This document shows, piece after piece, positions 8,544 to 26,632 of a stretch of 39,530 nucleotides of DNA (the first letter of the stretch is position 1; each line of letters starts with the position of its first letter). The notes under the pieces were generated by a model. That model saw only the letters and a list, made by a program, of their open reading frames with translations. It did no database searches and was not told the DNA's origin. The DNA comes from Lyngbya sp. HA4199-MV5 (GTDB taxonomy: Bacteria > Cyanobacteriota > Cyanobacteriia > Leptolyngbyales > Leptolyngbyaceae). Both the position numbers and the translations under genes were made by a program. The DNA lies in assembly GCA_019359375.1 (NCBI GenBank), contig JAHHHL010000055.1, positions 1-39,530 of the forward strand. Reading direction: 5' to 3'.

Positions 8544-9212
8544 CTGAACCGTGTTTATACGCCGACTCTGGCGGGTAACAACTCACTGAATGGTGCTTTA
8601 ACTCAATCACTACAACGAGCGGCTCATCATGGCGCAGGCGTTACAGAAAACAATGACGTGAAGCCAACACAGAGGCACTAACGGTTGCATTCATCAACGT
8701 TATTTCTACAAAAACACCGTTGGTTCAGCGCTGCTAAAGATCCAGTTGATGATTTTTGTTGCGACAATCGGGAACGCATCACACTCAATATGTAATCAAC
8801 CTGTATAACGTTCGTAGTGTTTTCAGTGATGCTGAACCGCTCACGAAATCAGGGAATGGTGTCTTAGAGGTTGGGCGCACATCATCGGTATCAAAACGAT
8901 CAGTATAAAAACGGTCGGTATCAAAACGATCGTTGAACGGCTGCAGTAAGAGCCGCAAGATCGGCATATAGCCAGATTCAACCACAATCGCTTTGCCAGT
9001 ACGATCGCGGACACCTCAGTAGAAGCATCAAAGCTGATTGGTCATGCCAAAACATGAGGCAAGACGGCATGGTGTTTGGAGAGACGAACGCTTACGCATC
9101 AACATTCCCTCTTCACTGTGAAGCCGTGAGATTTATAAGAAAGCTGTATCCCGAAAAGATAATCCTTGATATGATAGCGCGAGACATTGGTGTGGTGTGT
9201 GAGGAAGATAAA
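8544..9212. other. Intergenic between nadD and murC
   Basis: Divergent promoter region with no convincing gene. It contains three 15-bp repeat units at 8886-8930. A 66-codon minus-strand frame (8785-8985) reads through them as FDTDRFYTDRFDTD, but there is no homology or good start context. The frame upstream of the chosen murC start (9054-9212) is open but does not match MurC. Confidence 0.5.
8886..8930. repeat. Three 15-bp tandem repeats
   Basis: Units CGGTATCAAAACGAT, CAGTATAAAAACGGT and CGGTATCAAAACGAT; first and third are identical. They have the same period as, but a different sequence from, the repeat inside murC at 9533-9622. Confidence 0.8.
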
Positions 9213-10871
9213 ATGCTGAATTCCGTTGATTTCAGCGGTAAGCCATTTCATTTCATAGGCATCGGTGGCATTGGGATGTCAGCCCTTGCTTACGTGCTAG
9301 CGAAACGTGGACTACCCGTATCTGGTTCTGATTTGCATCTCAGTCGTATTACGCAACGACTTCAGGAAGAAGGTGCTCACATTTTTTGGAGCCAAGATCC
9401 CAGCAATTTAGAGTTTTTTCAAACGACTAAGCGACCAGCACGCGAGACACTACCAGCAACGACAATCGGTCTTACGCCTCTAACTGTTAGAGCAGAGCAA
9501 ACAACTAGAGCAGAACAAGCGACACTGCCACGATCGAGGGCAAACCCATCGAGGGCAAACGCATCGCGGACGAACCAATCGCGAACAAACCCATCGCGGA
9601 CAAACTCACCTCTGAGCAACCCATCGCTGGTTGACCTGGTTCCAGAAACGCTGCCACAAGTCATTTGCTCTACGGCGATTCATCCAGCCAACGCCGAATA
9701 TTTGGCAGCACGGGATTTAGGCTGCCCGATCTTTCATCGCTCTGATGTGCTCGCAGGACTGATGCAAGAGTACGAAAGCATTGCTGTCGCAGGCACTCAC
9801 GGCAAAACCACGACCAGCAGCATGATTGGCTATATGTTGCTGCAAGCAGGACTTGACCCCACGATCGTCGTTGGTGGCGAAGTCAACGCTTGGGAAGGGA
9901 ATGCTCGTCTCGGTCAGGGTGCTCATTTAGTAGCCGAAGCCGATGAATCGGATGGCTCTCTGGTAAAAATGGCGGCCAGCATCGGCATCGTGACAAATAT
10001 TGAACTCGATCATCCCGATCACTACAGCAATCTGGATGAAGTCATCGATATTTTCAAAACCTTTGCGAGCCACTGCAAGACGCTGATTGGCAGCATTGAT
10101 TGCCACACCGTAAGGGATCAACTTCAGCCCACCATTAGCTATAGTCTCGATCGCGCCTCTGGTGCAGACTATACGGTGGACTGTGTGACGTGTCGCGCTG
10201 ATGGTACGACCGCACGAGTTTGGGAACGCGGCGTTATTTTAGGACGTTTGAATGTCAAGCTGTTGGGGAAGCATAATCTCAGTAATGCCCTCGCAGCCGT
10301 TGCCGTTGGGCGCGCGTTGAAGCTGGAATTTGCCACGATCGCTCAGGCGATCGCCACCTTTGAAGGGGCACGACGACGGTTTGAACGGCGCGGTGAGTAC
10401 AATGGCATCCTGTTTGTGGATGACTATGCCCACCACCCTAGCGAGCTGCGTGCCACGCTGGCAGCCGCTCGCCTGCAAAGCTATGGCACATCGCCATCGT
10501 CTAAGCGGCGAGTGGTCGCTATTTTTCAACCCCATCGCTACAGCCGTACATCTACCTTTCTAGAAGACTTTGCCATGTCGTTTAGCGATGCTGATGTGGT
10601 AATGATCAGCGACATCTACAGTGCTGGTGAAGCCAATCCAGGCAATATCAGTGGTCAACAGGTTGCGAGTTTAATTGCAACTTATCATCCTCAAGTCGAG
10701 TACCAACCGTCGCTTCAGGCGGTCAGTCGCCGCTTAACTCAACTGCTTGAGCCTGGAGACATTGCCCTCTTTTTAGGAGCGGGGAATCTCAACCAACTAA
10801 TTCCCGAAGTCATGGCGTTTCATCAGAGCATTGAGCCAGGAACATCGCAGGCATGGTGCAACCAAGCCTAA
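9213..10871 (+). CDS. murC: UDP-N-acetylmuramate--L-alanine ligase
   Basis: 552 residues. It adds L-Ala to UDP-MurNAc, the first amino-acid step of cytoplasmic peptidoglycan synthesis. Start chosen at the ATG at 9213: GAGGA (9201-9205) sits 7 bases upstream and homology begins at FSGKPFHFIGIGGIGMSALA. The longer open frame from 9054 adds 53 unrelated residues. The UDP-substrate loop is GIGGIGMSA, the ATP loop GTHGKTTT (about residue 193), then EADESDGSL and DDYAHHPSE (Mur ligase C-terminal domain). Odd: residues ~68-146 are an insert rich in Thr, Ser, Arg and Asn between the N-terminal Rossmann domain and PQVICSTAIHP. Part of it is encoded by 15-bp tandem repeats (9533-9622). murB follows 77 bp downstream. 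Confidence 0.95.
   Translation: MLNSVDFSGKPFHFIGIGGIGMSALAYVLAKRGLPVSGSDLHLSRITQRLQEEGAHIFWSQDPSNLEFFQTTKRPARETLPATTIGLTPLTVRAEQTTRAEQATLPRSRANPSRANASRTNQSRTNPSRTNSPLSNPSLVDLVPETLPQVICSTAIHPANAEYLAARDLGCPIFHRSDVLAGLMQEYESIAVAGTHGKTTTSSMIGYMLLQAGLDPTIVVGGEVNAWEGNARLGQGAHLVAEADESDGSLVKMAASIGIVTNIELDHPDHYSNLDEVIDIFKTFASHCKTLIGSIDCHTVRDQLQPTISYSLDRASGADYTVDCVTCRADGTTARVWERGVILGRLNVKLLGKHNLSNALAAVAVGRALKLEFATIAQAIATFEGARRRFERRGEYNGILFVDDYAHHPSELRATLAAARLQSYGTSPSSKRRVVAIFQPHRYSRTSTFLEDFAMSFSDADVVMISDIYSAGEANPGNISGQQVASLIATYHPQVEYQPSLQAVSRRLTQLLEPGDIALFLGAGNLNQLIPEVMAFHQSIEPGTSQAWCNQA
9533..9622. repeat. In-frame 15-bp tandem repeats in murC
   Basis: Six units of 15 bp, beginning ATCGAGGGCAAACCC at 9533 and diverging to ACCTCTGAGCAACCC at 9608. 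They encode SRxNx-type pentapeptides (SRANP, SRANA, SRTNQ, SRTNP, SRTNS). Period 15 preserves the frame whatever the copy number. Confidence 0.85.
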
Positions 10872-17062: not shown

Positions 17063-17109
17063 ACAGTCGATCTTACCGCTTCGATGGCTCTACGCTTGCG
17101 ATCGCCGAA

Positions 17110-17150
17110 TTGGTCATTGGTCATTGGTCATTGGTCATTGGTCATTGGTC
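17110..17150. repeat. TTGGTCA heptamer repeat
   Basis: 5.9 exact tandem copies of TTGGTCA, upstream of the protease gene. Typical cyanobacterial short tandem repeat. Confidence 0.9.
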
Positions 17151-17232
17151 TCCAGCTTGAGATCTGTCACGTTCATACACTGAAGACTATTTCACTGCTC
17201 ACTGATGACTGTTCAAACCTTTTAGCCTTCAT

Positions 17233-17280
17233 CCTTCTGCCTTCTGCCTTCTGCCTCCTGCCTCCTGCCTCCTGCCTCCA
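17233..17280. repeat. CCTTCTG/CCTCCTG heptamer repeat
   Basis: Three copies of CCTTCTG, then three of CCTCCTG, then a partial unit. It ends 4 bp before the stop codon of the DUF1345 gene. The same family recurs at 26593-26627 and weakly at 23461-23480. Confidence 0.9.
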
Positions 17281-26546: not shown

Positions 26547-26592
26547 CTAGGAGTTTTGAGTTTTAGCTGCCTCTTCTGCTCCCCTTGCTTCT

Positions 26593-26627
26593 CTGCCTTC
26601 TGCCTTCTGCCTTCTGCCCTCTGCCTT
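26593..26627. repeat. CTGCCTT heptamer repeat
   Basis: Five copies of CTGCCTT, one varied to CTGCCCT, just downstream of cofH. Same family as 17233-17280. The whole 26361-26646 gap is repeats, with no gene. Confidence 0.9.
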
Positions 26628-26632
26628 CTTTA

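Follow-up and report, generated by a model that had tools for sequence, protein, structure and literature searches.

Tandem repeats lengthen a variable, predictedly disordered loop in the N-terminal domain of a cyanobacterial MurC

Results

The murC locus

The window analyzed here, a 39,530-nucleotide stretch of the filamentous cyanobacterium Lyngbya sp. HA4199-MV5 (contig JAHHHL010000055.1), carries murC on its forward strand at 9213 to 10871, encoding a UDP-N-acetylmuramate--L-alanine ligase of 552 amino acids. The protein scores 503.5 bits against TIGR01082 (cut-off, 335.1 bits), covers profile positions 2 to 448 of 449, and contains all three Pfam domains of the family, Mur_ligase, Mur_ligase_M, and Mur_ligase_C. 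Its ATG start at 9213 aligns with the starts of most of the best 80 relatives' loci, and murB lies downstream of murC in all 21 relative loci tested, several of which are one genome represented twice. The ATP-binding motif GTHGKTT (residues 194 to 200) is unchanged in 46 of 46 aligned sequences, the window's included, and a search of the 6.9-Mb genome returned a single MurC-grade match (E ≤ 1e-60); the L-alanine ligase activity itself is putative. The AlphaFold2 model of the protein has a mean pLDDT of 84.2, and in a fold comparison its enzyme body matches Haemophilus influenzae MurC (1p3d) with a Z score of 48.6 and 1.9 Å over 448 residues.

The murC leader and probable promoter (9093 to 9212) are strikingly conserved, being 85 to 97% identical to those of several other genus members over 77 to 115 nt. 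TG.TATGAT (9167 to 9175) and AGGA (9202 to 9205), with the GT-rich GTGTGGTGTG between them, are invariant in all 28 aligned sequences, and the arrangement looks like an extended -10 promoter followed by a short leader and a Shine-Dalgarno sequence. The leader had no Rfam match at the gathering score, and a search of the whole window for RNA elements likewise returned neither a tRNA nor an Rfam match at gathering scores. A noncoding 15-bp array lies 280 bp upstream of murC (8884 to 8932; ATCGGTATCAAAACG; 3.3 copies); weak matches to it of 33 nt were found in one relative (as two loci) among the 21 loci compared.

Position and predicted structure of the loop

Alignments and pLDDT values delimit a variable loop of 76 residues within MurC (residues 71 to 146; 9423 to 9650, forward strand), bounded by NLEFFQ (from 9405) and LPQVICST (from 9651). 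In the AlphaFold2 model it connects the helix at residues 63 to 69 to the strand at residues 149 to 152, within the N-terminal domain, and it lies in the alpha3-to-beta4 connection of that domain. A sequence-only reading of this DNA had put the segment between the N-terminal and central domains; that placement is wrong, as the strand at residues 149 to 152 and later elements precede both Mur_ligase_M, which begins at residue 192, and the GTHGKTT motif. The same reading had described the insert as rich in S, R, N, and T. Over an 86-residue span that includes the flanking SNLEFFQ and LPQ, T (14), R (10), S (9), and N (7) are indeed among the commonest residues, but so are P (10), L (9), and A (8).

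Structure prediction, one of the checks proposed in that reading, gave pLDDT values below 50 for residues 74 to 143 (9432 to 9641). A separate prediction for a Microcoleus MurC, whose alignment contained many close relatives, gave values below 50 for residues 76 to 116, and neither of the two predicted MurCs has any structure in the loop. By the criterion of a low-confidence, unstructured prediction, the loop is predicted to be an intrinsically disordered region. No Pfam family was found within 9420 to 9650 at E ≤ 10 (HMMER filters on). In Rossmann-type folds, helix-to-strand connections are on the side away from the strand ends that bind ligand, so the loop should be remote from the ligand and its site permissive.

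Architecture of the repeat array

The complete 15-bp array consists of seven consecutive forward-strand units at 9534 to 9638. Five of them encode SRxNx pentapeptides (SRANP, SRANA, SRTNQ, SRTNP, and SRTNS; 9534 to 9608), and two decayed units encode PLSNP and SLVDL (9609 to 9638), which a side-by-side reading sets opposite PLTTS and SLTSL of the nearest relative, Stenomitos rutilans. Just upstream, at 9489 to 9524, are two copies of an 18-bp unit (RAEQTT and RAEQAT), which side by side with S. rutilans corresponds to a single copy in that species. Tandem Repeats Finder reported arrays of period 15 at 9533 to 9627 (6.3 copies; score, 92) and of period 45 at 9541 to 9627 (score, 111), and the lag-15 self-match score of the loop, 40.2, was reached by none of 200 codon shuffles of that loop. 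The 15-bp in-frame array recognized in the sequence-only reading therefore stands, but its six SRxNx units are in fact five, the sixth being PLSNP and followed by a seventh, SLVDL. Most of the segment lies outside the array, which accounts for 35 of the 76 residues, with 12 more from the 18-bp duplication.

The five SRxNx units are 10 to 14 of 15 bases identical to one another, with a pN/pS of 0.48 that is based on few sites. The net charge of the loop, +6, is the highest of 131 loops, the next being +5. On the opposite strand an 81-codon open reading frame (9419 to 9664) spans the array, and the matching frame is open in S. rutilans too, probably because the sense strand is T-poor (12%), which tends to empty the frame of stops; an antisense gene there was considered and is not favored.

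Comparison with Stenomitos rutilans

S. rutilans (loci L002 and L031) has a MurC protein 93% identical to that of the window. Its loop contains one RAEQAT and three 15-bp units (SLTTP, PLTTS, and SLTSL), against seven 15-bp units in the window. Counted from Q70 to the residue before PQV, the loops are 23 + 12 + 3 + 35 + 5 = 78 residues in the window and 23 + 6 + 3 + 15 + 5 = 52 residues in S. rutilans, and the 26-codon excess of the window is exactly 18 bp plus four times 15 bp. On the same count four other genus members have loops of 47 (L003), 42 (L004), 40 (L005), and 40 (L006) residues, so that a gain of units by the window is a simpler history than a loss from S. rutilans and is the direction that the comparison suggests. 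The largest difference in loop length among 36 other close pairs was 9 residues, which makes the window and S. rutilans an outlier pair. Nonsynonymous divergence between the two is also concentrated in the loop (dN of 0.32, versus 0.023 in the rest of MurC).

Loop length across the class

We recognized murC in 191 of 217 sequences (216 loci plus the window), with identical segments merged to give 167; the 26 left out were 20 loci from the repeat search and 6 murC loci missed by the motifs (L027, L161, L197, L199, L200, and L205). The sample leans toward near relatives, the 80 named loci being the best 80 matches of the search, and from the 146 genomes covered by a murC search we used the 30 top matches together with a set picked by hand; the comparison takes one genome per species and includes seven searched genomes of the genus. 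Among 160 distinct segments taken as class members, the span from GIGG to GTHGKT ranged from 106 to 184 residues (median, 142; 10th percentile, 114.9), and it was 106 to 114 in seven sequences assigned to the phylum's other classes. Of the 160, the window has the longest span, at 184, and the next is 168. Nostoc relatives in the sample have loops of about 25 residues. The stretch that follows the loop is 43 residues in 163 of 167 distinct segments and 44 in the other four; given this near constancy, length change is confined to the loop. A loop at this position is thus common in the class, with length and repeats alone being peculiar to the window.

The assertion that other cyanobacterial MurCs have a shorter linker was true of all 159 other distinct class members examined. 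That these linkers are also unrelated was only partly right: the array of S. rutilans, with three 15-bp units, is homologous, and some loops from other families share a weak aliphatic motif (see below). The observation named in the earlier reading as counting against a variable loop, namely relatives with an insert that is identical and conserved, was not made.

The history of the loop can be sketched from a tree of 119 MurC proteins with the loop removed, a quick tree in which several branches are long and forks near the base, at 81 to 86, are open. Across the tree sample the loop counts ran from 2 to 80 residues, the window having 80 on that count. Sequences with short loops diverge near the base (L153, L162, L163, L155, and L188) and reappear within groups of long-loop members, both in the window's own family (L146, L147, L158, L015, and L016, with very short loops of 7, 7, 11, 12, and 14 residues) and elsewhere (L177, L178, and L182). 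In outline this pattern would fit a short ancestor, growth within the class, and repeated shrinkage. The loop is at least 20 residues long in 131 of 168 distinct genes, and in being kept at that length it may pay for itself.

Rate of change

Of 38 close pairs, 37 aligned over 8 or more loop codons and 35 had a defined loop dN/dS. Loop dN was higher than dN elsewhere in the gene in 35 of the 37 (median ratio, 5.3; sign test, P = 1e-8), the pairs in the opposite direction being L053/L057, in which the loop did not change, and L055/L070. Median dN/dS was 0.44 in the loop (35 pairs) and 0.067 in the rest of MurC (37 pairs). Values below 1 in the loop, together with the pN/pS among the SRxNx units, suggest that the loop may be under some constraint. 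Loop length was equal in 24 of the 37 pairs and is thus often stable. The earlier description of a tolerated, hypervariable loop is well supported by the near-constant stretch that follows it, the elevated dN, and the disorder predicted in two MurCs.

The earlier reading held that copy number could vary freely, although the five SRxNx units have already diverged. A related possibility is a size-variable contingency locus, in which the array would be selected to change its number of units and thereby tune MurC. The 15-bp period keeps the reading frame, and the two nearest species do differ by seven units to three. The same frame-keeping period, however, gives no off state, the divergence among the SRxNx units should slow slippage, and most close pairs are equal in loop length. 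We regard selection for changing copy number as very unlikely.

The repeat in its own genome

A search of the genome with the array returned only other matches of 25 bp or less at E ≥ 0.17, with no second copy, and a 24-base pattern spanning roughly one and a half units matched a single one among 42 family genomes, where this murC site was the only place. These results bear on whether a mobile or dispersed repeat element was inserted and captured in frame. The units contain partial CGATCG letters, which we take to be HIP1-like, as such an element might; the genome sample itself, however, holds 3.8 CGATCG per kb, S. rutilans has a homologous shorter array at the same site, and the several copies by which a dispersed repeat is recognized do not occur in this genome. 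The mobile insert was rejected, and we consider capture of such an element most improbable. In 12 sequences from the genus and its near relatives, CGATCG occurs 9 times in 1.7 kb of loop (5.3 per kb) and 33 times in 16.5 kb of the rest of the gene (2.0 per kb); HIP1 may have seeded the loop, the numbers being small and the genome average high.

A 400-kb survey of the genome, with crude calling of open reading frames (ORFs) of at least 100 codons, found 139 arrays, with 59 inside ORFs, 66 outside, and 14 that straddle an ORF edge and were not counted on either side. Periods divisible by 3 were found in 34 of the 59 internal arrays and in 14 of the 66 external ones (Fisher test, P = 4e-5). Period 15 accounts for 13 of the 59, and seven in-frame arrays in the sample score at least 92. 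The murC array resembles a product of this genome's usual minisatellite process that happened to arise in a tolerant loop. Of 131 loops, counting that of the window, 14 were self-similar at P ≤ 0.05; chance alone would give about 6.6.

Other arrays were seen in the course of the survey. In the same genome, a 21-bp array of 11.4 copies lies in a 363-codon stop-free frame (L217, 18928 to 19167), and a 15-bp array of 7.3 copies lies in a 1,063-codon stop-free frame (L219, 3161 to 3269). The MurC loop of a member of another family (L215) has an independent 15-bp repeat, NGHRS NGHRG (lag-15 score, 18.8; 0 of 200 shuffles). Heptanucleotide repeats, the commonest period in the 400-kb sample, form perfect or near-perfect arrays in the window at 17109 to 17150, 17225 to 17279, and 26592 to 26629.

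A candidate aliphatic motif

A Gibbs search of 29 loops of the window's family returned an eight-residue aliphatic motif with a score of 216, versus 160 to 178 in six shuffled sets; in the window it corresponds to the semiconserved ATTIGLTP (residues 82 to 89; 9456 to 9479, forward strand), for which this search and the transfer to other loops are weak evidence. On 50 loops of other families the motif gave a z score of 4.1, equaled by none of 300 shuffles. A width-10 version scored 231 against 183 to 190 on discovery and was weak in transfer (z = 1.7; 12 of 300 shuffles). The best transferred sites lie mostly 5 to 12 residues into the loop, others at 22 to 28. Before the Gibbs search, five regular-expression motifs were counted on 77 nonredundant loops: A.?[VI][GA] occurred in 33, against 9.7 expected, and NG-type motifs in 14 and 8, against 3.2 and 0.8 expected. 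All five were chosen after inspection, and none of these counts is a test. As the Gibbs motif was also sought after the loops had been inspected, and the shuffled null takes no account of relatedness or local clustering, it is a lead rather than a result.

The loop could instead be a functional disordered element, a docking or regulatory tether to the membrane or to MurB or other Mur enzymes, in which a short aliphatic motif would be the contact and the repeats a flexible, positively charged spacer. The transfer of the width-8 motif, the loop dN/dS below 1, the highest charge among the loops, the murB downstream of murC, and spans longer than those of other classes in most class members (10th percentile, 114.9, versus at most 114) are all consistent with a tether. 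Against it stand the weak transfer of the width-10 motif, the post hoc search and its null, the near absence of the loop from several lineages, including some in the window's own family, and a loop devoid both of predicted structure in two models and of Pfam families. We judge a docking or regulatory role unlikely. The fuller proposal, in which a disordered MurC-specific tether in most class members docks MurC to a partner (MurB, other Mur enzymes, or the membrane) through a short aliphatic anchor and repeat expansion tunes its reach and charge by lineage, also seems unlikely.

Discussion

Our findings are best explained if a minisatellite grew almost neutrally in a permissive, disordered loop that is common in the class and was lengthened in the window's lineage, a reading that we consider likely. 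In-frame tandem duplication, most likely via slippage or unequal recombination, would have added one 18-bp copy and four 15-bp units there. The lengthening would have persisted because the loop, presumably lying away from the ligand-binding strand ends, tolerates change in length and sequence, and the frame-keeping period would be what selection leaves in a coding array. The segment looks like a tolerated, fast-changing one rather than a new functional domain, and the MurC loop of the window is a somewhat extreme example of an ordinary phenomenon.

Loop counts of 2 to 80 residues form a natural length series within a domain that is folded and belongs to an essential enzyme, useful for asking how far a Rossmann-type fold tolerates disordered sequence. 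The series is also a warning that cyanobacterial MurC should not be modeled or targeted from proteobacterial structures alone, and, if the weak motif is real, it would mark a clade-specific contact of the cell wall pathway. This MurC loop is not described in the titles and opening lines of abstracts of the literature matches listed, which cover subscription journals in part, and the words "insert" and "loop" are absent from the main text of PMC7231273.

Comparison with known systems places the loop more precisely. The MurCs of H. influenzae (1p3d) and Escherichia coli (2f00) share with that of the window the three Mur ligase domains, the GTHGKTT motif, and the fold (Z scores of 46 to 49), but the three solved MurCs compared (of 41 matched PDB sequences), all noncyanobacterial, hold 4, 5, and 4 residues in the gap where the window MurC has 81 to 83. 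Pentapeptide-repeat proteins, with the consensus A(D/N)LXX, have the five-residue period of the murC array, but the array has P, A, Q, P, and S at the central L/F position, and a pentapeptide-repeat domain was rejected, as the Pfam search of 9420 to 9650 found no match to one. Cyanobacterial heptanucleotide repeats are known as STRR; tandem repeats are common in the genome of the window, but the murC array has a period of 15, in frame, and not of 7. Coding minisatellites in disordered loops are a general phenomenon, and the murC array resembles them in a period divisible by 3, a composition of the disorder type, and a change of length between near species. It differs in its setting, since it is not in a surface protein or a tail but within a folded domain, and that of a housekeeping enzyme that is essential.
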